From NCBI GenBank assembly GCA_035295165.1, contig DATGJN010000113.1, positions 1-64,000 of the forward strand: 64,000 nucleotides of DNA, written 5' to 3'. Positions 4,862 through 44,915 of the stretch are shown here, in pieces (the first letter of the stretch is position 1; each line of letters starts with the position of its first letter). The DNA is from a bacterium (lineage in GTDB: Bacteria > Sysuimicrobiota > Sysuimicrobiia > Sysuimicrobiales > Segetimicrobiaceae). Under the pieces are notes generated by a model. The model was not told the origin of the DNA. It searched no databases and saw nothing but the letters and a program-made list of their open reading frames with translations. The translations under genes and the position numbers were made by a program.

Positions 4862-4961
4862 CGGGTCCCGGGACGATAGCACGCTGCAGCTTGGGCCGGT
4901 CGGCGGCGAAGCCGTGGGGCGTCGGTCGAGTCTCGGGAACGGCCGCGGCGGCGTTTAGGCG

Positions 4962-5462
4962 TCAGTCGAACTCCCGCCTCGGCGGCGCTTGATCCACCCC
5001 CACCCGCCCCGCGGTGATTTCGGCGACGAAATAGTTCTCCCCGCGCACGGGAGCGCCGGCCAATCGCCGCCGGGTCGCGATCTGTCCGACATGCGTCAGC
5101 GCGTCGGCGATGGGACCCTGAAAGAGGCGCTCCACCGGAGCACGCAAGGGCGCATCCGAGGCAAGGTACGCGTCGAACGCTTGGAGCGAAACGAAGAAGC
5201 GCTCGATTTGCTCGGGCCATGCCAACACATGGGAGTTGTGCCACGCCTGCGTCCCCTTCGCCAGCGACAGCGCCCAATCGAGCAGGTCGCCCATGTGGGC
5301 GAGGATCTCCCCCGGGGTCCGGGCCGTGTCCGAGATCCGGAACTCCCCGAAGTCGGCCGGCGCGCCGCGCAGGGCCTTTGCGGCCCGGTACGCCAACGTG
5401 GCCACGCAGTGGCGAAGAACGCGCCGGCCGGAGCCGGCGGCCGCCTGTTCGATATCTGTCAT
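4962..5462 (-). CDS. DinB-like (DUF664-type) four-helix-bundle protein
   Basis: A 166 aa protein beginning MTDIEQ, with an AAGGAGG ribosome binding site just upstream; the open frame extends further but has no better start. It reads as a DinB/YfiT-like helical bundle: a histidine in RHCVATLAYR, another in ILAHMGDLLDWAL, and a third in ALTHVGQIATRRRLAGAP followed by GENYF. These match the three-histidine metal site of the superfamily. Members include thiol-dependent transferases and damage-inducible proteins, and the substrate cannot be told from sequence. It is transcribed alone, convergent with the M19 peptidase. Confidence 0.75.
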   Translation of the reverse strand: MTDIEQAAAGSGRRVLRHCVATLAYRAAKALRGAPADFGEFRISDTARTPGEILAHMGDLLDWALSLAKGTQAWHNSHVLAWPEQIERFFVSLQAFDAYLASDAPLRAPVERLFQGPIADALTHVGQIATRRRLAGAPVRGENYFVAEITAGRVGVDQAPPRREFD

Positions 5463-32526: not shown

Positions 32527-32934
32527 CTAGAATGACGAGCTGGTCGTGACGCTTCCATCGCTGTTGAGCGTCAAGGTCATCGTCTTCCCGACGACGGGGC
32601 TCCCCGCCACTCCCGCCGCGCTCGCCACGATGTTCGCCGCCGTACCCGTTCCGATGGAGTAGTTCCAGTTGGCGCTGGCCGGCGCCGCAAAGCCGATCGC
32701 CGCCGGAGTCGCGTTCACGAACGTGTTGTACTGCTGGTAGTACCCCCACTCCATCGTCTTAACATCCTCAAATGTGCGGTTGGCCTCGGCCTTGTAGGCG
32801 CTGAGCCGGGAGTTCAGGTACAACGGCATCGCCGCCGCCAACATGATGCCGATGATCGCAAGCACCACCACCAACTCGATCAAGGTAAACCCGCGGTCCT
32901 CTTGCCGGATCTTCGCACGCAGCCGCCTGTACAT
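32527..32934 (-). CDS. pilA: Major type IV pilin, paralogue 3
   Basis: A 135 aa prepilin with leader MYRRLRAKIRQEDRG and mature start FTLIELVVVLAIIGIMLAAA. It shares DVKTMEWGYYQQYNTFVN with paralogue 1 and ends in NSDGSVTTSSSF. There are no cysteines. The ATG at 32932-32934 follows GGAGGGGGAAG at good spacing; an upstream in-frame ATG overlaps that site and is unlikely. It lies directly downstream of pilC in the motor operon, after a strong stem-loop. Confidence 0.93.
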   Translation of the reverse strand: MYRRLRAKIRQEDRGFTLIELVVVLAIIGIMLAAAMPLYLNSRLSAYKAEANRTFEDVKTMEWGYYQQYNTFVNATPAAIGFAAPASANWNYSIGTGTAANIVASAAGVAGSPVVGKTMTLTLNSDGSVTTSSSF

Positions 32935-33086
32935 CGCGTCTTCCCCCTCCATCCGCGCCCTCGGCCGTCCCGGCCGGTTCGTGTCCTCACCTCCTAGGTA
33001 CCCGGTCCCGCCGGCGGCCGCGACGTGTCGCTTGAAGGGTTCGAACGGTTCATTGGAGGCCTGCCTGACGCAAAAGGGGGAGAAAC

Positions 33087-33122
33087 GCAGCGGGAGGGGC
33101 GCGGACACCCTCTCCCGCTGCC
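33087..33122 (-). terminator. Stem-loop between pilC and pilA3
   Basis: GCAGCGGGAG and CTCCCGCTGC pair perfectly around a GC-rich loop. On the minus strand the hairpin is followed by GTTTCTCCCCCTTTTGCG, a weak T-containing tail. It could end pilB-T-C transcripts partially, or mark the 5' end of a separate, more abundant pilin mRNA. Confidence 0.55.
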
Positions 33123-33150: not shown

Positions 33151-34368
33151 TTACTTGATCGCGTTCGCGAGTCCGAAGATGGGGAGGTAGAGCGCGAGCA
33201 GCAGGCCGCCGATCACGGCCCCCATGCCGATGATCATGAGCGGTTCAAGGATGGAGGTCAGGCTGGCCACGGCCGCCTCTACTTCGGAGTCGTAAAAGTC
33301 GGCGACCTTGTTCAACATATTGTCGAGGGCGCCCGTCTCCTCGCCGACCCGCACCATCTGGACGACCATGAGCGGGAAGATGCCGCTGGCTCCAAGCGGG
33401 ATCGCAATACTCTCGCCCTCGCGGATGCTCGAGCGGATCGAGTCGACGGCACGCCCCAGTACCGAGTTGTCGATCGCCTGGCCGACCACCTCGAGCGCCC
33501 GCATGATCGGGACGCCGCTGCTGACGAGCGTGCCGAACGTGCGGGTAAAGCGCGCCACAACGATCTTCTTGACGAGCGGTCCGAGCACCGGCAGGCGTAG
33601 CTTGAGCCGGTCGTACTGCTCGCGGCCGACCCGCGTGCGGACGTACCGGCGTAGGGCGAAGACGGTGCCCCCGATCACGATGGTCGCCAACCACCAGAAG
33701 TGCCGGATGATCAGGCTCACCCCGACGGCAATCTGAGTCGGGATCGGCAGCGGCGCGTTGCCCCCGAGCTGTTTGAAGAAGTCGGCGAACTGCGGGATGA
33801 TGACAATCGTCATGAACATGAGGGCGCTCAACGCCGCGACCGCCAGCAGGATCGGGTAGGTCATCGCCGACTTGATCTTGTGGCGCAGCGCCATCTCCTT
33901 CTCGAGGAAGGTGGCAAGCCGCAGTAGGACGTCGTCGAGCACGCCGCCGGCCTCACCGGCGCGCACCATGTTCACGTACAGGTTGTTGAACACCCGTGGA
34001 TGCTTCGCGAGCGCGGCGCTCAGGGTGGACCCGCCCTCGATGTCGACGCGGATGTGCCCGATCGTCTCCTTGAGGATCGGCTGCGTCACCTGCTCTTCCA
34101 AAATCGTGAGGGTCCGCACGAGCGAGAGGCCGGCGTTGATCATCGTCGCGAACTGCCGGCTGAACACCACGAGGTCCTTCAGCCCGACGCCGCGCCAGCG
34201 CCGGAAGATGTCCTCGACGTTCTGCGACTTCTTCTTCTGATGGAGCGCCGTGACGAAGAACCCCATGTCCCAGAGCTTCTGGGCCACGATCGCCTCGCTG
34301 TCGCCCTCCAGCGCGCCGGCCAAGAGCTTGCCGCTGTTGTCCCGCGCCGTGTACTCAAACACAGCCAT
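33151..34368 (-). CDS. pilC: Type IV pilus inner-membrane platform protein PilC
   Basis: A 405 aa protein of the T2SF/PilC family that couples the PilB and PilT motors to pilin assembly. Two cytoplasmic T2SF helical domains (about 70-190 and 275-395) are each followed by membrane helices; the usual three segments are visible (about 170-190, 220-240, 375-395). Motifs include FSRQFATMINAGLSLVRTL, PRVFNNLYVNMVRAGEAGG and FTRTFGTLVSSGVPIMRAL. It is full length and lies directly downstream of pilT. Confidence 0.95.
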   Translation of the reverse strand: MAVFEYTARDNSGKLLAGALEGDSEAIVAQKLWDMGFFVTALHQKKKSQNVEDIFRRWRGVGLKDLVVFSRQFATMINAGLSLVRTLTILEEQVTQPILKETIGHIRVDIEGGSTLSAALAKHPRVFNNLYVNMVRAGEAGGVLDDVLLRLATFLEKEMALRHKIKSAMTYPILLAVAALSALMFMTIVIIPQFADFFKQLGGNAPLPIPTQIAVGVSLIIRHFWWLATIVIGGTVFALRRYVRTRVGREQYDRLKLRLPVLGPLVKKIVVARFTRTFGTLVSSGVPIMRALEVVGQAIDNSVLGRAVDSIRSSIREGESIAIPLGASGIFPLMVVQMVRVGEETGALDNMLNKVADFYDSEVEAAVASLTSILEPLMIIGMGAVIGGLLLALYLPIFGLANAIK

Positions 34369-34401: not shown

Positions 34402-35589
34402 TCACCGCGCCTTGCGCTCCTCGCTCGTGCGCCGTCCGCCCCCAAGGATCTTGCTCATCTCTTCCGGGTGAATCGCCCGGTTGATCGCGGTCTCGTTGCT
34501 GATCAACCCGCGCCGGTGCAGCTCGGCAAGCGCGCTGTCCATCGTCTGCATGCCGAACTGGCCCCCGGTCTGGATCGCGGACTCGATCTGGTGGCTCTTC
34601 GATTCCCGGATCAAGTTGCGGATCGCCGGGGTCGCGATCATCACTTCGACCGCAGGCAGACGCCCCACTTCCTCAATTGCGATCCGTGCCCGCTTGATCG
34701 TCGCGACGGCCCCATCGCCGGCGACTCGCGCCGCAGCCTGTTCCGCCGGCCGCCGCGCGCCCACATATCGCTCGTTCGGCACGAGTTGCTGCGCGATCAC
34801 CGCCTCGAGCACCGAGGACAGCTGCGTCCGGATCTGCGGCTGCTGGTGTGGCGGAAATACGTCGATGATCCGGTCGATGCACTGGGCCGCGGTGGCCGTG
34901 TGCAGCGTCGCGAACACCAGGTGACCGGTTTCGGCGATCGTCAGCGCCGCGGCGATCGTCTCGAGGTCCCGCATCTCGCCGATCAGCACCACGTTGGGAT
35001 CCTCGCGCAGCACCCCGCGCAGCGCATTGGGGAAGCTTTGCGTGTCAAACCCGAGCTCGCGCTGATTGACGATGCTCTTCTTGTTCGTGTGCAGGTACTC
35101 GATGGGATCCTCGACGGTGACGATGTGGCACGCGCGCTCGCCGTTGATGAAGTCCACCATCGACGCGAGCGCCGTGCTCTTGCCGTTTCCCGTCGGCCCG
35201 GTGATCAGCACCAACCCGCGGTGCCTCCGCGCCAAATCCAACAGGATCGGCGGCAGGTTGAGCTCGTCGATCGACGGGATCGCCGACGGGATGGTGCGCA
35301 TCGCCACGCCCACCGCGCCGCGCTGCCGGTAGAGGTTCACGCGGAACCGGCCGAGTCCCGTGACGCCGTACGAGAGGTCGAGCTCCCAGGTCTTCTCGAA
35401 CCGCTGCTTCTGAAACGCGTTCAGCATGCTGTATGCGAGCTGGGACGTGTCCTCGGGCTCCAACAGCTCGTGGTGTTCGAGCGCTACGAGCTTCCCCCAC
35501 ACGCGGATCGTCGGTTTCGCGCCTGCCGTCAGGTGCAGGTCGCTCGCGTGCGCCGCCACCGTTTCGCGCAGCAGATCGTCTACGTGCAT
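34402..35589 (-). CDS. pilT: Pilus retraction ATPase PilT
   Basis: A 395 aa hexameric ATPase that drives pilus retraction. An N-terminal PAS-like domain starts HVDDLLRETVAAHASDLHLT. The Walker A is GPTGNGKST at 131-139, followed by the Asp box VTVEDPIEYLH, VLIGEMRDLETI for Walker B, and the His box GHLVFATLHTATA. The retraction-specific segment IIDVFPPHQQPQIRTQL is present, which separates it from PilB. The ATG at 35587-35589 has GGGGGAGGA upstream. Confidence 0.95.
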   Translation of the reverse strand: MHVDDLLRETVAAHASDLHLTAGAKPTIRVWGKLVALEHHELLEPEDTSQLAYSMLNAFQKQRFEKTWELDLSYGVTGLGRFRVNLYRQRGAVGVAMRTIPSAIPSIDELNLPPILLDLARRHRGLVLITGPTGNGKSTALASMVDFINGERACHIVTVEDPIEYLHTNKKSIVNQRELGFDTQSFPNALRGVLREDPNVVLIGEMRDLETIAAALTIAETGHLVFATLHTATAAQCIDRIIDVFPPHQQPQIRTQLSSVLEAVIAQQLVPNERYVGARRPAEQAAARVAGDGAVATIKRARIAIEEVGRLPAVEVMIATPAIRNLIRESKSHQIESAIQTGGQFGMQTMDSALAELHRRGLISNETAINRAIHPEEMSKILGGGRRTSEERKAR

Positions 35590-35763
35590 GCTCGTCCTCC
35601 CCCTGGTCCACCGTCTCGCCATGCTCGAACGCGTTCGCGCGGCCCGCGAGGCCCGACCCGCGCCCCCAGGCCGGCACCGATGGCGCTCACCGCCACGCCA
35701 CCCCGCGATCCGCCCGTGACGAGTTGGCCCGTCCGGCGGGGCCCTACCGCCAGCGTCCGGACC

Positions 35764-37539
35764 TCAGTCCTCCACATATACTGCCCGTAGTACTTCCTCC
35801 GCAGACGTGATGCCCAAAAGCACCTTCGTGAAGCCATCCTGCCCTAGCGTCCGCATCCCGGCGCGGATCGCCGCCTGCCGGACGTCGGCCACCGACGCTT
35901 GCTTCGTCACCAAGGAGCGGATCGTGTCGTCGATCGACATGATCTCGAACAGCGCCGTGCGCCCGAGGTAGCCGATGTTCCCGCAGTGGTCGCATCCCTG
36001 CGGCCGGTAGAACGTGGCGGCACCGGCCTGTTCGGCCGCCAGCGCCCCGAACCGGTCGAGGAGTTCCGCCGGGGGCAGATACGGCTGTTTGCACCGATCG
36101 CAGAGGACGCGCACGAGGCGCTGGGCGATCACGCCCACCATCGACGACGCCACGAGGAACGGCTCGATGCCCATGTCCACGAGGCGCGCCACGGCCCCAG
36201 GCGCGTCGTTCGTGTGGAGGGTGCTCAGGACGAGGTGGCCGGTCAGCGCCGCATGGATCGTGATCCGCGCGGTCTCCTCGTCGCGGACCTCGCCGACCAT
36301 GATGATGTCCGGGTCCTGCCGGAGAAACGACCGCAGACCGTTCGCGAACGTGAGCCCGGCCTTCGGGTTGACCTGCACCTGGTTGATGCCCGGGAGCTGG
36401 TACTCCACCGGATCCTCCACGGTGATGATGTTGGACTCGGTGGAGTTGAGCCGATTCAGGATCGAGTACAGGGTCGTGCTTTTGCCGCTGCCGGTCGGCC
36501 CCGTGAGCAGGATGATCCCGTGCGGCCTGGAGATCATCGCGTCGAACCGCGGAAAATCGACGGGCAGGAGGCCGACGCGCTCGAGTCCCACGACCGTCGC
36601 GCTCTTGTCCAGGATGCGCATCACGACCTTCTCGCCGAACACGGTCGGGATCGTGCTCACGCGCAGATCGTAGTCCTTGCCTTCCGCTTTGTATGCGATG
36701 CGGCCGTCCTGGGGCACGCGCCGTTCCGCGATGTCGATGTCCGCCATGATCTTGACGCGCGAGATGACCGCGGCCTGAATGTCGCGCGCGGGGGTCATCA
36801 CGTTGTACAGCGCGCCGTCGATGCGGTAACGGACCCGCATCCGGAACTCCTGCGGTTCGATGTGGATGTCGCTCGCTCGTTGACGGATCGCCTGCAGGAT
36901 GATCATGTTGACCAGGCGCACGACCGGGGCCTCGTCGACGAGCGCCCGAAGCTGATCGACGCCCATCTCGTCCTTGGACAGCGCCTTGGCCTTGATCTCC
37001 GTGATCACCGTCTCGACGCTCTCGTCGAGCGCGGGATACTGGTTGATCGCCCGCTGAAAATCTTCCGGCGTGATGACCACGGGCTCGATCTCGCGTGCGG
37101 TCCGCGTGTGGACGTCGTCTAGCGCCAGGACGTCCAGCGGATCGACCATCCCGACCGTGAGCTTGTCGCCGTCGATCGCGATGGGGATCGTCTGAAACCG
37201 GCGCGCGAGATGTTCGGGCAGCAGCAACATCGCCTGCTCGTCGGGGACGGTCTCCCGCAGGTCGACGTACCGGAGCCCGAGCTGCAGCGCCAGCGCCTCG
37301 CCGATCCCTCGCTCGGTGGCGCATCCCATGTCGACGAGCACTTGCCCGAGGCCGCGGTGCCGCCCCGCGCGCTTCTGTTCGCCGAGCGCCTCGGCGAGTT
37401 GCTCGAGCGTGATCACGCCCGCGTCGACCAGAATCTCGCCGAGCCGGCGGCGGCGCAGCGCGGCCCCCGGGCGTGCCTTCTGCGCGTCGCCAGGAACCGG
37501 GATCTGCACCAGCTTGTCGTCCATCGCTCGTGCGGCCAT
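35764..37539 (-). CDS. pilB: Pilus extension ATPase PilB (copy 1)
   Basis: A 591 aa GspE/PilB-type ATPase. The N-terminal T2SSE_N domains span about 30-180, then the catalytic core with Walker A GPTGSGKST at 347-355, VEDPVEYQLPGINQVQVN, MVGEVRDEETARI and GHLVLSTLHTNDA. The zinc-binding tetracysteine CDRCKQPYLPP and CDHCGNIGYLGR near the C-terminus is complete. The ATG is preceded by GGGAG and lies two bases after the stop of the DnaB-like gene. It drives pilus extension; the presence of a second, longer copy 1.6 kb upstream is notable. Confidence 0.94.
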   Translation of the reverse strand: MAARAMDDKLVQIPVPGDAQKARPGAALRRRRLGEILVDAGVITLEQLAEALGEQKRAGRHRGLGQVLVDMGCATERGIGEALALQLGLRYVDLRETVPDEQAMLLLPEHLARRFQTIPIAIDGDKLTVGMVDPLDVLALDDVHTRTAREIEPVVITPEDFQRAINQYPALDESVETVITEIKAKALSKDEMGVDQLRALVDEAPVVRLVNMIILQAIRQRASDIHIEPQEFRMRVRYRIDGALYNVMTPARDIQAAVISRVKIMADIDIAERRVPQDGRIAYKAEGKDYDLRVSTIPTVFGEKVVMRILDKSATVVGLERVGLLPVDFPRFDAMISRPHGIILLTGPTGSGKSTTLYSILNRLNSTESNIITVEDPVEYQLPGINQVQVNPKAGLTFANGLRSFLRQDPDIIMVGEVRDEETARITIHAALTGHLVLSTLHTNDAPGAVARLVDMGIEPFLVASSMVGVIAQRLVRVLCDRCKQPYLPPAELLDRFGALAAEQAGAATFYRPQGCDHCGNIGYLGRTALFEIMSIDDTIRSLVTKQASVADVRQAAIRAGMRTLGQDGFTKVLLGITSAEEVLRAVYVED

Positions 37540-37541
37540 AG

Positions 37542-39107
37542 TTATCTCCCTTCCCGGTGTCCGGCGGCGGCCAACGGCAGCACACCGGTGTCGATCAGCT
37601 GGGCGTAGATGCTCTGCAGCTTCGTGAACGCGTGGTAGTCCGGCCGGTACTCGCGCTCCAGCTTGTAGTCCAGCTCGACAAACTTGTTCAGCGTCACGAA
37701 GAACGCATACTGGATGATCGTCGCGGCGTGCTCGGGCGCGTCGCGGTTCTTGTCGAAGTGCAGATTCACGATGTCCAGCTTCGGCAGGAGGTCCGGGTCC
37801 ACGTTGGCCGCCTTCGCCCGGTTCTCCACGAACTGCCCGAACTCGGCGGTGGCCTTCCAGTCTTTGGCCAGCACCATCGCCACGTCCAGGTCGTACTCCA
37901 GGTCGCCGCTCCCCACGCTGTGGTGCATCGTCGGGCGATGGTACTGGGAGTAGGCGTCGTCCTCTTCTGCGGGCCGCTCGTCGAGCCGACAGCCTTCCTT
38001 GTCGAGCGGCGAGATCGCCAGGATCGGCACGTTGAGCTCGAGGCTCAGCTCGGCCAGATCGGTCGAGATCCGGTCGGTGCGCGCCTTCCAGTCCTCCAGA
38101 TGCTCCCCGAGGGGGATCTTCTGCAGGTAGTCGAAGAACAACGCGACCTCGCTGGTCTGGAACTCCTGCATCACGTTGTAGGCGTGTGACCGGATCCGTG
38201 CGATCGTGTCCTGGCGGCCCGCCTCGATCAGAAACATATAGGGTGCAAACGAGCCCATCCGCTCCTGGGCCGAGCGCACCGCCGCCGCGACCGGCCGATC
38301 GTCGGGCTGCCCGCCGCCCAGAATGGCGGCGGGGCTGATGCCGCTCTCCTTGGCGATCAGGCGCGCGCCCAACACCTGGGCGGTTTGCTCCCACGAGTAG
38401 AAGAGTACCGGGATGTGGTTATTCGCCGCGATGTACATCGCCAGCTGGAGCGCTAGGTTCGTCTTGCCGCGGCGTGGCGCCCCGGCGAGCCCGTAGTAAA
38501 ATCCGCGGCGCATGCCGGACAACAACGTGGTGAGACGGTCGAACGGCGCCAGCGAGTACCCCAACAGCCCCGGCAGGTCGTGACGTTGCTCCGCCTCATT
38601 CGCGAGCCGCGCGACCACCTCGGTCACCGGCTGCAAGTGCGCCTGCATCCGCTGCCGCTGCATCTCCACGAGCTCGTGGATGATCCCCGACGCAAGCTGT
38701 TGGACCTCGCTGTCCGACCCGCCAGCCCCCCCCAGAAACGTGCCGAGGCGGGCGTGCAACGTCGACAACCGCTCGCGACGCTCGCGGACCCGCAGTTGTT
38801 CGATAAACTCCATCAACTGCCCGGCGTTCGGAATCTTCACCGCCGCGACGCGTTGCAGATACCGGTCCATCTCGGGCGTGGCGAGCCCGAGCCGCTCGAT
38901 CGCCGCCCGGACTGCCACGGGGTCGATCACCGCATCGCGCGTCGCGTAGAGCTCCATCACGACCCGGCACAGCCGGGTCGCGGCGGGCACGCGCAAGAGC
39001 TCCTGCTTGAACCCTTCGCGCATGGCGAGGGTCACGAGGTGTCGGTCCCGAATGAACCCATGCAGGATCGCAGCTTCTACGACTTCATCTGGCGTCTCGT
39101 ACGGCAC
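37542..39107 (-). CDS. DnaB-like SF4 hexameric ATPase/helicase in the pilus operon
   Basis: A 521 aa protein with the DnaB layout: a reduced N-terminal helical domain (about 5-120, with AILHGFIRDRHLVTLAMREG and IDPVAVRAAIERLGL) and a RecA-like core. Visible motifs are Walker A GAPRRGKT (209-216), catalytic-type Glu240 in LFYSWEQTAQVLGARLIAKE, Walker B with D326 in VALFFDYLQK, SGDLEYDLDVAMVL (400-413) and the Arg-finger-like KNR (453-455). All residues needed for ATP hydrolysis appear intact. The glutamine of the usual SQL motif is replaced (ISPLDK). The GTG start has AGGGAG six bases upstream. It lies between the two pilB genes, with a two-base gap to pilB1. Its role in the pilus context is unknown. 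Confidence 0.85.
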   Translation of the reverse strand: MPYETPDEVVEAAILHGFIRDRHLVTLAMREGFKQELLRVPAATRLCRVVMELYATRDAVIDPVAVRAAIERLGLATPEMDRYLQRVAAVKIPNAGQLMEFIEQLRVRERRERLSTLHARLGTFLGGAGGSDSEVQQLASGIIHELVEMQRQRMQAHLQPVTEVVARLANEAEQRHDLPGLLGYSLAPFDRLTTLLSGMRRGFYYGLAGAPRRGKTNLALQLAMYIAANNHIPVLFYSWEQTAQVLGARLIAKESGISPAAILGGGQPDDRPVAAAVRSAQERMGSFAPYMFLIEAGRQDTIARIRSHAYNVMQEFQTSEVALFFDYLQKIPLGEHLEDWKARTDRISTDLAELSLELNVPILAISPLDKEGCRLDERPAEEDDAYSQYHRPTMHHSVGSGDLEYDLDVAMVLAKDWKATAEFGQFVENRAKAANVDPDLLPKLDIVNLHFDKNRDAPEHAATIIQYAFFVTLNKFVELDYKLEREYRPDYHAFTKLQSIYAQLIDTGVLPLAAAGHREGR

Positions 39108-39141
39108 GGACCGCTCCCTTCTTCCACCATGCGCCCAACGA

Positions 39142-41616
39142 CTAGTCGGCGACGAACACGACGCGAAGCATCTCTTCCATCGTGGTGGTGCCCTCGAGTA
39201 CCCGCTGGATCCCATGCTGCCGGAGCGTGCGCATCCCCGCCTCCTGGGCGGCCTCGCGCAGCCGGTCCGCCGATTGGCCGCCCAACACCAACTTCCGCAG
39301 CGCCTCGGAGACCATCATCAACTCGAACACGCCGATGCGCCCGTGGTATCCCGTCTGGCGGCACGCGTCGCACCCGCGGCCCCGGTAGAACTGCGGCGCG
39401 TCGCCCGCCTGGACGGCCCCGATGTGGCGGAGCGCTTCCGCGGGCGGCGCGTACGCTTCTTTGCAGCGGCTGCAGACGACCCGCACGAGGCGCTGGGCGA
39501 GGACGCCGATCAGCGATGAGGAAATCAGGAACGGCTCGACGCCCATGTCGACGAGGCGCGTCACGGCGCTCGGGGCGTCGTTCGTGTGCACGGTGCTGAG
39601 GACGAGGTGGCCCGTCATCGACGCCTGGATCGCGATCTCGGCGGTCTCGCGGTCCCGGATCTCGCCGATCAGGATCACGTCGGGATCCTGGCGCAGGATC
39701 GTCCGCAGACCGTTCGCAAACGTCAAGCCCACCTTGGGGTTCACCTGAACCTGATTCACCCGCGGGATCTGGTATTCGACCGGATCCTCCACGCTCACGA
39801 TGTTGCGCTCCGGCGTGTTGATGCGCGCCAGCGACGTGTAGAGCGTGGTGGTCTTGCCGCTGCCGGTCGGCCCGGTGACGAGGATGAGCCCGTACGGCTT
39901 CGTAATCAGGTTCTCCCACGTGGCCAGCAGGTGATCCGCGAACCCCAGTTGGGTCAGCGTAATCCGGGTGCGCGACGGATCGAGGATCCGCAGCACCACC
40001 TTTTCGCCCAACACGGTGGGCAGGCTGCTGACCCGCAGATCGAAGTCCTTGCCGTTCACGCGGAGGTGGATATGCCCATCCTGCGGCAATCGGCGTTCCG
40101 CGATGTCCATGTTCGCGAGAATCTTGATGCGCGAGATCAGTGCCGCCTGCACCGCCTTGGGTGGGGTCATGAAGTCCTGCAAGATCCCGTCCACGCGGAA
40201 ACGCACCTTCACCTCTTGCGCGTGCGGCTCGATGTGAACGTCGCTCGCCTCGGCAAACACGGCCTGCGTGAGGATCTGGTTGACGGCCCGCACGATCGGG
40301 GCGTCTTCCACCATCGCGCGGAGATGTTCGACCGTGACGTCCTCGGAGGGCGCCTCGCCGATCGCCTCCGGCTCCACCGTCCCCTTGAGCATCTCCTCGA
40401 TGTCCGCGTGGCCGCCGTAGATCATGCCGTGCACGCGGGCGAGATCCACCGGGCTCGCAACCATCAAGTCCACGTCGAGCCCCGTGACGAGGCGGATGTC
40501 GTCGATCGCGACAACGTTGGCGGGATCGGCGATCGCGACGACCAGCCGGTTGCTGGCGCGCCGAATCGGCACCACCCCGTGGCGCCGCGCGAGATACGCC
40601 GGGAGGAGGCGGGCGGACTCGAGGTCCACATCGCGGTCGGGCAGGCTCGTGTACGGCAGATTCCACTGCAGGGCCAGCGCCCGGGCGAGTTGCTCCTCGG
40701 TCAGCGCCTGCATGTTGACCAGGATGCGTCCGAGTGGGGCGCCGTTGCGCTGCTGCAGTTGCAGCGCATCCTTGACCTGGTCCCGGGTGACCCACCCCTG
40801 CCGCACCACGATCTCGCCCAGGAGATCGCCCCATCGCTGCCGACCTGCCGCGCTCTCAACCGATGGCGCGCCCGCCGCCGCGGATGTCTCGGAGACCGGC
40901 GCGGACCCGCCGCTGCCGTTGCCGCTGGGCAGCCGCGCTGCTGCCGGGCCAGCGTCCTCTCGCTCGACGGACGGCGCGCGCGGGACCTCTCGAATCTCCA
41001 CGATCTCGAGATCGGTCTCGCCCACGTCGGCCGCCGGGGTGGAGGCGGACGCCTGAGGCACGGCCGCTTCGGTTGCGTCGAGGACCGGACGTTCCTGAAC
41101 CGGCGCTGCGGAAACGTGCCGTTCCCGGGCGGCGCGAATGGCTGTGTCGAGCTGCGGCAGCGCCCGTTTCTGCCCGGCCTGCTCGGTCACCTCGCGCAAC
41201 GATGTGAGGATGTCCACGTCGTCAGGCGCGAGCTCCGCGGCGCGCGCGAGCGCCCGCGCGGCCTCGTTCCATTGGCCCCGTGCGACGCACCGGTCGGCAA
41301 ACGCCCCGAGCACGACCACGGCCGGCCGTGCATCCGCCTGGAGGGCGTACACATCGGCTAGTTCCCAGTACGCCCAGGGATCGTCCGGGGCTAGCTCGAT
41401 CGCCTTCTTGAAGCACGCGACGGCGTCATCGAGCTCTCCGGCCCGGTGGCGGGTCACGCCGGTATGGAACCATATCGCGACGTCCAGGGCGCAGTCCCGC
41501 TCGGCCAGCCCCAAGACCTCCCGGTAGGCGGCCAGTTGCTCCCTGACGTCCCCCACGCCGTCGCCGGCGGTCTGTTCCCCGGGCGTCCGGATGACCTCGG
41601 CGCGATCTACAGGCAC
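39142..41616 (-). CDS. pilB: TPR-fused PilB/GspE-type pilus ATPase (copy 2)
   Basis: An 824 aa protein, about 250 aa longer than usual. Residues 45-135 form TPR-like repeats (AVACFKKAIELAPDDPWAYW), then a disordered Ala/Pro/Ser-rich linker (about 150-260). T2SSE_N domains follow from about 262, then the ATPase core with Walker A GPTGSGKTT at 582-590, VEDPVEYQIPRVNQVQVN, LIGEIRDRETAEI and the zinc cysteines CSRCKEAYAPP and CDACRQTGYHGR. The GTG start overlaps the end of the roadblock gene by 10 bp, so translation is probably coupled. The TPR module suggests a partner protein that regulates this motor. Confidence 0.9.
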   Translation of the reverse strand: MPVDRAEVIRTPGEQTAGDGVGDVREQLAAYREVLGLAERDCALDVAIWFHTGVTRHRAGELDDAVACFKKAIELAPDDPWAYWELADVYALQADARPAVVVLGAFADRCVARGQWNEAARALARAAELAPDDVDILTSLREVTEQAGQKRALPQLDTAIRAARERHVSAAPVQERPVLDATEAAVPQASASTPAADVGETDLEIVEIREVPRAPSVEREDAGPAAARLPSGNGSGGSAPVSETSAAAGAPSVESAAGRQRWGDLLGEIVVRQGWVTRDQVKDALQLQQRNGAPLGRILVNMQALTEEQLARALALQWNLPYTSLPDRDVDLESARLLPAYLARRHGVVPIRRASNRLVVAIADPANVVAIDDIRLVTGLDVDLMVASPVDLARVHGMIYGGHADIEEMLKGTVEPEAIGEAPSEDVTVEHLRAMVEDAPIVRAVNQILTQAVFAEASDVHIEPHAQEVKVRFRVDGILQDFMTPPKAVQAALISRIKILANMDIAERRLPQDGHIHLRVNGKDFDLRVSSLPTVLGEKVVLRILDPSRTRITLTQLGFADHLLATWENLITKPYGLILVTGPTGSGKTTTLYTSLARINTPERNIVSVEDPVEYQIPRVNQVQVNPKVGLTFANGLRTILRQDPDVILIGEIRDRETAEIAIQASMTGHLVLSTVHTNDAPSAVTRLVDMGVEPFLISSSLIGVLAQRLVRVVCSRCKEAYAPPAEALRHIGAVQAGDAPQFYRGRGCDACRQTGYHGRIGVFELMMVSEALRKLVLGGQSADRLREAAQEAGMRTLRQHGIQRVLEGTTTMEEMLRVVFVAD

Positions 41617-41978
41617 TCGGCCACCATGGCGCGGACGCGCTGGGTCTCGACCCGGATCCGGCCGAGGTTGCAGAAGCGGCTCCCCATCAACACGAGCATG
41701 GAATCCTTGTTGACCTGGGTGACGGCGATCGGCCCGGCCGGGAACTCGGCGAGCAGCACGTCAGGCGGACCGGCGGCCTGGATCTCGGTGGCGACACCCT
41801 CCCACGCGAGCATGGCGCTGCTCACGAGCGCGCCGACCGCGTCCAAGTCGACTTCCTCAGACTTCGCTGCGTCGATGACGAACCCGTCGCGGCTCACGGC
41901 GATCGCGGCGACGATCGCGCCTTTGTGTGTCAAGTCGTTCAACACGTCTTTGAGGTTCAATGTGAGATTCGTTGCCAT
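41607..41978 (-). CDS. Roadblock/LC7 domain protein 1
   Basis: A 123 aa single-domain protein of the roadblock/LC7 (MglB-like) fold: NLTLNLKDVLNDLTHKGAIV, then AVSRDGFVIDAAKSEEVDLD, GALVSSAMLAWEGVATEI and a C-terminal helix. MglB-type proteins are GAPs for small GTPases that place T4P machinery at cell poles. The ATG follows a GGGGGGTG site, and the frame extends upstream without a better start. It lies between the second roadblock gene and pilB2. No GTPase gene is visible in the window. Confidence 0.85.
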   Translation of the reverse strand: MATNLTLNLKDVLNDLTHKGAIVAAIAVSRDGFVIDAAKSEEVDLDAVGALVSSAMLAWEGVATEIQAAGPPDVLLAEFPAGPIAVTQVNKDSMLVLMGSRFCNLGRIRVETQRVRAMVAECL

Positions 41979-42006
41979 GGCGCACCCCCCGAGTGACTGT
42001 GGTCGA

Positions 42007-42381
42007 TTATCCTGCGACTGCCTCGTTGATTGCCGCAAGCTCCGGTACGTGCCGGCGAAGCTGAACGCGGGCCGTGCCCACGTTGGCCTTGCCGTTGAGG
42101 AACACCGCCACGCACCGGTCGGGCGCGGGCGCTGCCACGAGTACCGTGAACCGCTCGCAGCTCATCATGAAGTCGTTGAACCCCGAGGCGTGCAGCTTCC
42201 GGCACATGTAGATCAGGAGCTTGGTCAGCGTCGTGATCTCGTGGTTGACCGCTTCCAGCGGAAAGTGCGCGTCGAGCTTGACCACGTCGATCGGCGTGCC
42301 GTCCATCGCGATCACGCCTGCGCCCATCGCGCCGGGGGTGCCTGACACAATCGCATCCAAGATCTCGCGCACTCTGGTCAT
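42007..42381 (-). CDS. Roadblock/LC7 domain protein 2
   Basis: A 124 aa protein with the roadblock/LC7 pattern: VREILDAIVSGTPGAMGAGV, then IAMDGTPIDVVKLDAHFPLE, a central helix, and a beta strand CERFTVLVAAPAPDRCVAVF. It is divergent from the first roadblock protein, so the two could form a heterodimer. It is separated by 28 bp from the next gene and by 76 bp from the sigma factor upstream. Function in pilus control is inferred from position. Confidence 0.8.
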   Translation of the reverse strand: MTRVREILDAIVSGTPGAMGAGVIAMDGTPIDVVKLDAHFPLEAVNHEITTLTKLLIYMCRKLHASGFNDFMMSCERFTVLVAAPAPDRCVAVFLNGKANVGTARVQLRRHVPELAAINEAVAG

Positions 42382-42457: not shown

Positions 42458-43288
42458 CTACCGATGGTGCAGATCACTGACATGGGTCATGGTGGACAAG
42501 CGTTTCAGTGCCGCCGACAGGACCCGCGACACGTGCCGCTGCGAGATCCCAAGCCGCGCGGCCACCTCGCTGTGACTCAGATCCATGTAGAACAGGTAGT
42601 AGACGATCTTCCGCTGCAGATCCGCAAGCCGTTCGATGGCCTGCAGCAGCACGATCCGGTCCTCGACCGGCAGCTGAAACGAGATGTACCGCTGGTGCGT
42701 GATCATGTCGCGCCGAACGTTCGTCTCGCTGATCGTGTCGTCCATCGACCGGACGTTCGTGGTATCGTAGGCGCGCACAATCTCGTCGACGCCCTTCTCG
42801 GTCATGTTCATTTTGGCCGCGATTTCCGCATGCGTCGGGGTCCGCCCCAGCAGCTGCTGCAGTTCCGCGACCGCGCCCACGAGTTCCCCATAGAGTTTAC
42901 GGGCCCACCGCGGCACCTGTACGGCGTCGGCGTCGTCTCGCAGGTAGTGACGGATCTGGCCCGAGATGTGGCTGTACGCGTACGCCTCGAATTTCACGTT
43001 GCGGTCGGGATCGAAGTGCCGGACCGCGTGCATCAGCCCGATCGTGCCAACCTGAGTCAAGTCCTCGAGAGACACCGAAGGCCGCACGTACCGGTGGGCC
43101 ACCTTGCGCGCCAGCGGCAAGAACCGGCAGACGAGATCTTCGAACAGGGTCGTGTCCCGCGTCTGTCGGTACTCGCGAAACAGGCCGAGGACCTCTTCGT
43201 CTGGCGCCTCAGCGACATCAGGCAGCCACGCCGGCCGAGTGGCGGCCGCAGGGCCTTCCGCGGGCGCGTGCCCGGACTGCGGGGTCAT
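42458..43288 (-). CDS. SigB/WhiG/FliA-like RNA polymerase sigma factor (copy 1)
   Basis: A 276 aa sigma-70-family group 3 factor. Region 2 is VCRFLPLARKVAHRYVRPSV and LEDLTQVGTIGLMHAVRHFD, ending FEAYAYSHISGQIRHYLRDD. Region 3 has TPTHAEIAAKMNMTEKGVDE, and region 4 has LSHSEVAARLGISQRHVSRV. A 40-residue acidic N-terminus precedes region 2 and region 1.1 is absent. It lies between the MerR-like gene and the roadblock genes, and is about half identical by eye to the second sigma factor. It probably directs transcription of pilus or surface genes. Confidence 0.9.
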   Translation of the reverse strand: MTPQSGHAPAEGPAAATRPAWLPDVAEAPDEEVLGLFREYRQTRDTTLFEDLVCRFLPLARKVAHRYVRPSVSLEDLTQVGTIGLMHAVRHFDPDRNVKFEAYAYSHISGQIRHYLRDDADAVQVPRWARKLYGELVGAVAELQQLLGRTPTHAEIAAKMNMTEKGVDEIVRAYDTTNVRSMDDTISETNVRRDMITHQRYISFQLPVEDRIVLLQAIERLADLQRKIVYYLFYMDLSHSEVAARLGISQRHVSRVLSAALKRLSTMTHVSDLHHR

Positions 43289-43324: not shown

Positions 43325-43666
43325 CTATCCATTGTGCCGCCGACCCGCAGCGACGGCCGCCTCCGGCACGTCACGCGACGTCGACGGGTCCGACGGCTCG
43401 TCATCCCCATCCGCGGCGATCGGCTGCGCGGCGAGCCACGCGCCCACGCCCTGCAGGCTCATGCCCTGCTCTTCAATCAGGCGCCGGATCTGGCGGATCA
43501 GCTCCAGGTCTTGCATTGAGTAGAGGCGGTGATGCCCCCTGGTGCGAGCCGGTTGCAGGAGACGATACTCCACCTCCCACATCCGCAGGCGTCGAGGTTC
43601 GACCCCCGTGAGCGCTGCCGCGGTTCGGATCGGGTAGATTGGTAGATTCCCGAGCCTCGGTCCCAT
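43325..43666 (-). CDS. Small MerR-type (HspR-like) transcriptional regulator
   Basis: A 113 aa protein with one MerR winged-helix domain: LPIYPIRTAAALTGVEPRRL, RMWEVEYRLLQPARTRGHHR, LYSMQDLELIRQIRRLIEEQ, then GMSLQGVGAWL. The ending resembles HspR-type short MerR proteins with no effector domain; about 35 residues of polar tail follow. The ATG has a GGAGAGG site. It is flanked by two sigma-factor genes of the same family, and overlap and spacing indicate a single transcript. Confidence 0.85.
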   Translation of the reverse strand: MGPRLGNLPIYPIRTAAALTGVEPRRLRMWEVEYRLLQPARTRGHHRLYSMQDLELIRQIRRLIEEQGMSLQGVGAWLAAQPIAADGDDEPSDPSTSRDVPEAAVAAGRRHNG

Positions 43667-43706
43667 GACACCACCTCTCCTTGAGCCCTGAGAGCCCTGA
43701 TCTGCG

Positions 43707-44486
43707 TTATGCACCGCCGGCACCGACGGTCTGCACGAGCGGGGCGAGGCGCTTGAGCGCCGCGGCCAGCAACCGGGACACGTGCCGCTGCGAGATACCC
43801 ATCAGCTTGGCAGTCTCGCTCTGGGTGAGATCGAGATAGAACAGGTAGTACACAGCCTTCCGCTGGACCTCAGCCAGCCGCTCGATCGCCTGGAGCAGCA
43901 TCACGCGGTCTTCGATCGGGAGCTGGAACGACACGTATCGCTGGCGTGGCGCGGGCTGGGCGTCGCCGCCGGCCTCGTCGTTGATGCGCTCGACGCGGGT
44001 GGCCCCGTAGGCCTGGAGCACCTCCAGGAGCTCATCGTCGGTGATCCGCATGCGCTTGGCGATCTCGGGCAGCGTCGCGGATCGCCCGAGCTCCTGCTGC
44101 AACTCGGCGCCGGCGGCTTTCATTTCACCGTAGGCCTTGCGGGCCCACCGCGGAGTGCGCATGAGGTCGACGTCGTCGCGGAGGTAATGTCGAATCTCGC
44201 CCGCCACGTGGTGGTAGGCGTACGTCTCAAACTTGACGTTGCGCGCCGGGTCGAAGGTGTTGACCGCGGTCATCAACCCGATCGCGCCGACCTGGATGAG
44301 ATCATCGAGCGGTATGGACTGCCGGACATACCGGCGCGCGATCTTGCGCACAAGCGGAAGATACTGGCACACCAACTGGTGATACAGTCCGACATCCTTC
44401 GTGCGCCTGTACTGATGGAACACTTCCGAAATCGCGGGCCCGTTTGAACCCGAATCTTCCTGAATGGCCATCGCACTCGTGCCCAT
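43707..44486 (-). CDS. SigB/WhiG/FliA-like RNA polymerase sigma factor (copy 2)
   Basis: A 259 aa group 3 sigma factor, first gene of the motor operon. Region 2 is VCQYLPLVRKIARRYVRQSI and LDDLIQVGAIGLMTAVNTFD, region 3 has TLPEIAKRMRITDDELLEVL, and region 4 is LTQSETAKLMGISQRHVSRL. The ATG at 44484-44486 has GGGGGGGAG upstream; longer open frame to 44555 lacks a better start. The 5' leader of over 200 nt carries a GEMM-I riboswitch and a terminator, so expression of this factor and the downstream pilus genes should respond to cyclic di-GMP. Confidence 0.9.
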   Translation of the reverse strand: MGTSAMAIQEDSGSNGPAISEVFHQYRRTKDVGLYHQLVCQYLPLVRKIARRYVRQSIPLDDLIQVGAIGLMTAVNTFDPARNVKFETYAYHHVAGEIRHYLRDDVDLMRTPRWARKAYGEMKAAGAELQQELGRSATLPEIAKRMRITDDELLEVLQAYGATRVERINDEAGGDAQPAPRQRYVSFQLPIEDRVMLLQAIERLAEVQRKAVYYLFYLDLTQSETAKLMGISQRHVSRLLAAALKRLAPLVQTVGAGGA

Positions 44487-44694: not shown

Positions 44695-44731
44695 TTGGAG
44701 AAAAAAGAAGCCTCCCACGCACCACGGGAGG
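44695..44731 (-). terminator. Intrinsic terminator of the riboswitch expression platform
   Basis: On the minus strand CCTCCC and GGGAGG pair (extended by two G-U pairs) around a short loop, followed by CTTCTTTTTTCT, a proper T run. It lies 11 nt downstream of the aptamer. The 5' arm CCCGTGG (44722-44728) is complementary to CCACGGG (44786-44792) inside the aptamer, so alternative pairing between the two is possible. Confidence 0.8.
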
Positions 44732-44742
44732 TTTCCGGTTGT

Positions 44743-44835
44743 CGCTCCGGCAACCCGGCTGACTTGCCAGCTCGCGCTGGCCTGTCCCGTGGCTTTGCGT
44801 CCCCAGATCTCTCTGGGTTTGCCCCTACAGAAGCG
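44743..44835 (-). promoter_or_regulatory. GEMM-I cyclic-di-GMP riboswitch aptamer
   Basis: Read on the minus strand, the RNA has the GEMM-I core in order. The GGGGCAAACC segment is followed by a hairpin CCCAGA-GAGA-TCTGGG with a GNRA loop (44802-44817). Then come GGACGCAAAGCC, a second hairpin CCAGC-GCGA-GCTGG, and the closing GTCAGCCGGGTTGCC. A closing helix CGCTTC/GGAGCG (44830-44835 with 44743-44748) bounds the domain. Nucleotides equivalent to the ligand-contacting G20, A47 and C92 of the Vibrio Vc2 aptamer appear as G, A and C, which favours cyclic di-GMP over cGAMP. It is followed by an intrinsic terminator and the sigma/pilus operon. Confidence 0.82.
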
Positions 44836-44854
44836 GCACAGCTATGAAGTTGTA

Positions 44855-44915
44855 CCTACTAAGTAATCATATTCATGGAAACTTGTCAAGACACTGTCTG
44901 AAAGATTATAACCGC
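44855..44915 (-). promoter_or_regulatory. AT-rich promoter region of the riboswitch transcript
   Basis: This stretch is strikingly AT-rich for the window. On the minus strand it has a perfect TATAAT at 44905-44910 and a TTGACA at 44884-44889 with TATGAT at 44866-44871, but no pair has standard spacing (TTGACA to TATGAT is only 12 nt). An inverted repeat AGACA-C-TGTCT (44890-44900) lies between them. Which element starts the transcript is not resolved. Confidence 0.4.

Follow-up and report, generated by a model that had tools for sequence, protein, structure and literature searches.

On the minus strand of the window, by which we mean the whole 64,000-nucleotide stretch of DNA analysed, a class I c-di-GMP (GEMM-I) aptamer and a terminator-like hairpin (CCTCCCGTGGTGCGTGGGAGG followed by CTTCTTTTTT) stand ahead of a long series of sigma-factor and type IV pilus genes (Table 1). 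The leader occupies an intergenic region of its own, with ruvX and alaS as the upstream genes. The series opens with a sigma-70 factor, whose ATG start we place provisionally after GGGGGGGAGC, and the description given in a first-pass annotation of this DNA, in which pilus motor genes come after a sigma factor, is borne out by Pfam and NCBIfam matches on the same strand. Because a terminator scan returned no second strong minus-strand match from the aptamer to the pilin genes, it is plausible that leader through pilin genes form one transcript. The DnaB-like ATPase lies between the two PilB genes, and in several further genera and families such a protein is likewise kept close to pilus or sigma genes. 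The roadblock/LC7 protein and its small neighbour (41607-42381) recall the MglB-type control of pilus polarity.

A promoter built on TTGACA likely serves the leader. The putative −35 and −10 elements were read from the sequence, and a consensus promoter scan called no promoter at this TTGACA; TTGACA or TTGACT, again with a 17-nt spacer, is found 5' of most relatives from the window's family (f1), and several relatives carry TTAACT at the position of the window's putative −10. Many leaders, from f1 as well as from the sister families f2 and f6, also have a short box resembling ACTTCATAGC or TTTCATAGC 15-30 nt 5' of the aptamer (44840-44852 in the window); this box may belong to a start site or a promoter.

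Table 1. Features of the leader and of the genes downstream, in window coordinates
Feature	Coordinates	Strand	Basis
Putative −35 element TTGACA	44884..44889	-	read from sequence
Putative −10 element TTACTT	44861..44866	-	17 nt past the −35; putative
c-di-GMP-I (GEMM-I) riboswitch aptamer	44746..44833	-	RF01051, 70.3 bits, E 9.6e-12
P1 5' strand CGCTTC	44830..44835	-	best P1 helix computed
CCACGGG, P3 5' strand and one candidate antiterminator strand	44786..44792	-	sequence and folding
P1 3' strand GGAGCG	44743..44748	-	terminator overlap 0 nt
Intrinsic terminator hairpin	44711..44731	-	terminator scan; stem changes compensated between genera
CCCGTGG, terminator 5' arm plus loop and other candidate antiterminator strand	44722..44728	-	CCGTG invariant in ten relatives
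Terminator T-rich tail CTTCTTTTTT	44701..44710	-	terminator scan
Sigma-70 factor, SigB/SigF/SigG-like	43707..44486	-	PF04542, PF04539, PF04545; best NCBIfam SigBFG, below its cut-off
MerR-type HTH protein (ORF bounds)	43325..43723	-	PF13411
Second SigB/F/G-like sigma factor	42458..43288	-	Pfam and NCBIfam matches
Small protein, roadblock-like by position only	42007..42381	-	kept in relatives; no Pfam match
Roadblock/LC7 protein	41607..42038	-	PF03259
PilB/GspE-type ATPase with TPR repeats and MshEN c-di-GMP-binding domain	39142..41616	-	PF00437, PF05157, NF053729 c-di-GMP motif
DnaB-like ATPase in pilus operon (ORF bounds, true start later)	37542..39215	-	PF03796; kept in relatives
Second PilB-type ATPase with MshEN domain (start approximate)	35764..37500	-	PF00437, PF05157
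PilT	34402..35622	-	TIGR01420, above cut-off
PilC (T2SSF)	33151..34368	-	PF00482
Type IV pilin-like protein (ORF bounds)	32527..33108	-	motif GFTLIELVVVLAIIGI

When the window was scanned with cmscan against all Rfam families, RF01051 gave the sole match above cut-off, a full-length alignment on the minus strand (model positions 1-87 of 87) in which no non-canonical pair was marked and whose score far exceeds the gathering score of 35 bits. The aptamer contains each of the core motifs GGGGCAAACC, GGACGCAAAGCC and GGGTTGCC, and its P2 (CCCAGA-GAGA-TCTGGG) is capped by GAGA, a GNRA tetraloop. The complete GEMM-I core that had been claimed for this strand, with an Infernal search against RF01051 proposed as its check, is thus confirmed, and judged by this model the RNA is a real, conserved member of the class I c-di-GMP aptamer family.

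The ligand predicted for this aptamer is c-di-GMP. We mapped the ligand-contact residues named for Vc2, G20, A47 and C92 (PMC4744006), onto the RF01051 model, and in this mapping of our own they correspond in the window to G at model position 11, to the A that follows GC in ACGCAAAG and to the CC of GCCGGA. Recognition of cGAMP goes with A at the G20 position (PMC6274999, PMC9262584); because the window has G at this specificity base, cGAMP specificity was rejected for its aptamer. A main ligand of 3',3'-cGAMP or another cyclic dinucleotide would have precedent in the Geobacter GEMM-I RNAs that bind cGAMP (PMC8835794, PMC9262584), and A does occupy the G20 position at one orthologous site of the order, but we consider it very unlikely, since the form studied bound to cGAMP is G20A (PMC6274999) and since G stands at that position in the window and in the sigma-linked relatives, L037 excepted. 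The exceptional sigma-linked aptamer (L037:1235-1312, genome G037) reads GAGCAAACC where its congeners read GGGCAAACC; this cGAMP-type base is known from one MAG and may be a sequencing error.

Sysuimicrobiota (CSP1-3) comprises one class and one order (PMC11604079), and conservation was followed across 43 genomes of that order, the window genome included. In 27 of the 43, the orthologous sigma gene is preceded by an aptamer at a distance of no more than about 400 bp; in 23 of these the aptamer stands directly 5' of the best match to the sigma factor, and in the other four (G020, G032, G041 and G042) it was placed by coordinates. Four further genomes (G004, G005, G007 and G009) have the aptamer at the head of an operon in which one or two pilT genes come before the sigma gene. 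Family f4 has no aptamer at the sigma-linked site. A full-length, high-scoring aptamer is kept at the sigma site in four families, and other genera, as well as family f2, share the gene order sigma-MerR-roadblock-PilB-PilT-PilC, so that the association of aptamer and operon, as mapped in these genomes, is far beyond chance. At the sigma loci of 13 relatives the orthologous site holds c-di-GMP-I-GGC (RF03167), a family of the same clan, with GGC or GAC in the relatives' J2/3, whereas the window RNA is scored best by RF01051. J2/3 alternates between GAC and GGC at one orthologous site (L012, L014 and L015 vs L009-L011), so that members of RF01051 and RF03167 replace one another within one family. 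In the aptamers of four f2 genomes (L025-L028), the conserved GGCAAACC has become GGCTAACC, an unusual change beside the binding pocket.

The clean intrinsic terminator noted in the first-pass annotation was located as a hairpin with a T tract, and the two segments singled out there as complementary, CCACGGG in the aptamer and CCCGTGG in the terminator arm, lie exactly where they had been placed. The 11-nt distance given for the terminator holds approximately when counted from the P1 3' strand but not from the end of the Rfam aptamer, which is 14 nt away. Ten leaders from three genera of f1 were compared downstream of the aptamer, and the only invariant run of their platforms is CCGTG, which pairs with CACGG of the aptamer; around it the terminator stem varies between genera with compensated pairs (CCTCCC/GGGAGG, CTCCCC/GGGGAG and CTCTCC/GGAGAG). 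CCGTG is missing in one f1 relative (G005, L087). The aptamer bases complementary to CCGTG are invariant as well, and the antiterminator thus carries no covariation signal.

Folding was computed as partition functions at equilibrium, with the bound state imitated by forcing the aptamer core. While the terminator 3' arm is not yet made, the free RNA is predicted to form the antiterminator with a probability of 0.65-1.00 in all ten f1 leaders; with the core forced, the antiterminator falls to 0 and the terminator reaches 0.97-1.00. For the window, the CCACGGG/CCCGTGG antiterminator has a predicted probability of 0.99 in the free RNA and 0 with the core forced, and the terminator probability of the full-length RNA is 0.01 in the free vs 1.00 in the holo state, in keeping with the mutually exclusive pairing that had been suggested for aptamer and terminator. 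At equilibrium, the terminator is also the end state of the free full-length RNA in most relatives, where switching would therefore need to be kinetic. Shuffling of the loop, or of loop and spacer together, lowers the mean antiterminator probability in every leader, with a single-leader significance that is mixed to moderate because the CCC arm often pairs with the aptamer GGG by chance. Duplex tests of the anti-aptamer strand in single f1 leaders come out mostly weak, with z near 0, owing to the high GC content.

These calculations bear on two rival readings. An ON switch, in which c-di-GMP would block termination and activate the operon in the manner of Geobacter pilM or the pili of C. difficile, would accord with the many cases in which cyclic dinucleotides raise pilus genes (PMC6200980, PMC9262584) and with the ON architecture of two GEMM-I RNAs of the same genome (C57b and C57c), whose P1 3' strand overlaps the terminator arm. 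In the window, however, neither P1 nor the aptamer has a base in common with the terminator, which is predicted to form fully when the core is forced, and ON logic is disfavoured as unlikely. The aptamer might also have decayed, leaving a constitutive attenuator that sets a fixed level of termination regardless of ligand, as the shuffle controls are not strong throughout and some class I riboswitches of C. difficile showed no function in vivo (PMC6200980); the retention of a high-scoring, full-length aptamer in four families, together with the invariance of the antiterminator strand, nevertheless makes this highly improbable.

The window RNA is, in our assessment, quite probably a GEMM-I transcriptional OFF switch, through which high c-di-GMP would lower expression of the sigma/pilus operon. 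Without c-di-GMP, the P3 5' strand CCACGGG would pair with the terminator 5' arm and loop CCCGTGG, the freed 3' part of the aptamer would pair with the spacer, and RNA polymerase would continue into the sigma/MerR/sigma/roadblock/pilB/pilT/pilC operon. With c-di-GMP bound, P1, P2 and P3 would be kept together and the CCCGTGG strand let go, and this released strand would pair with its own 3' arm as the terminator; a high level of c-di-GMP would then mean less sigma factor and less pilus machine. The same OFF logic had been offered in the first-pass annotation, and as a reading it is strengthened by the ten orthologous leaders with their invariant CCGTG and by the folding predictions. Since two motor ATPases of the operon match the MshEN family of c-di-GMP-binding domains, the signal probably sets how much pilus machine is made as well as how active it is, which suggests a two-level control of pili by one signal. 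For an uncultured soil lineage, the Sysuimicrobiota, this amounts to a testable rule in which c-di-GMP would act on a sigma-factor cascade, with its presumed regulon, and through it on pili.

In the sister families, the same pair of aptamer and sigma gene is joined to other platforms. Hairpins that bury the Shine-Dalgarno sequence, as read from the leaders, follow the pair in f2 and f5, and in f6 it is followed by a strong hairpin whose T tract is weak; on this reading, the target is kept and the platform swapped. Several f2, f5 and f6 leaders carry a strand complementary to the aptamer 3' GGGYTGCC (for example GGGCAGCCC in f6), so that the ligand-free RNA would open the downstream structure, which is OFF logic, and it is suggestive that these platforms may also be OFF switches. 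The corresponding anti-aptamer duplex is strong in only some of the f2/f5 and f6 leaders (L019, z −3.4; L022, −2.7; L028, −2.3; L038, −3.1), and Shine-Dalgarno accessibility clearly favours OFF in L020, L025 and L028 only, the two states being indistinct in most other f2/f5 leaders and in f6 (L037 left out). The orthologous leaders form a natural series in which the aptamer-target pair is fixed while the platform changes, a rare view of how the output of a riboswitch is rewired.

With 27 GGDEF domains and ten RF01051 matches, nine of them above cut-off, c-di-GMP signalling is well developed in the window's genome. Three GEMM-I RNAs lie within 1.4 kb on contig C57 (L078:3992-5316, genome G000), the last two, C57b and C57c, as a tandem pair (4949-5028 and 5237-5316). 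In the tandem RNAs a terminator arm overlaps the P1 3' strand, as in a pilM-like ON switch, and the pair stands before a secreted Gly/Ser/Asn-rich repeat protein and a CHASE3-GGDEF protein; further GEMM-I RNAs of the genome stand before CAP-domain or Gly-rich proteins. We tentatively put forward, as a possibility somewhat short of an even chance, that a single RNA class gives one signal opposite effects within the same cell, with a Cd1-like OFF switch on the sigma/pilus operon and tandem pilM-like ON switches on secreted repeat-rich proteins, and that the aptamer-target pair has been kept across most of the order while its output shifted between termination and Shine-Dalgarno masking and one lineage took up a cGAMP-type base. 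If confirmed, c-di-GMP would activate surface proteins and shut off the sigma/pilus operon in the same genome.

Among known systems, a first comparison is with the C. difficile flgB operon, of which we take sigD to be a member. This flagellar operon is under Cd1, a GEMM-I OFF switch whose terminator is compatible with the folded aptamer and whose antiterminator unfolds the binding pocket (PMC9262584), and SigD is thereby under c-di-GMP control (PMC6200980, PMC9262584). The window RNA resembles Cd1 in its class I aptamer, its predicted transcriptional OFF logic, the predicted coexistence of the aptamer with a downstream terminator, a predicted antiterminator drawn from aptamer bases and a sigma factor under the same control. 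Cd1, however, has a flagellar operon as its target, in which the sigma gene is not first, whereas the window leader has a well-formed P1, a much shorter platform and a sigma gene in first place with pilus genes after it. The pilM RNA of Geobacter metallireducens likewise places a GEMM-I aptamer and a terminator ahead of a type IV pilus operon, but it is a cGAMP ON switch (PMC9262584) whose terminator overlaps the aptamer 3' strand, and a sigma factor is not reported as its first gene. In C. difficile, a class II c-di-GMP riboswitch upstream of pilA1 (PMC6200980, PMC4744006) also puts type IV pili under c-di-GMP through a leader RNA, but this is an ON switch whose aptamer fold is unrelated to GEMM-I. 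The newness that had been claimed for the window RNA therefore stands only in part, since a GEMM-I RNA before a pilus operon (pilM) and one before an operon that includes a sigma gene (flgB/sigD) are both known; our limited literature search found no earlier description of a sigma-first pilus operon under GEMM-I. As far as we have searched, what is new here is the lineage, the sigma gene as the first target, the deep conservation with swapped platforms and the presence of apparently opposite ON GEMM-I switches in the same genome.
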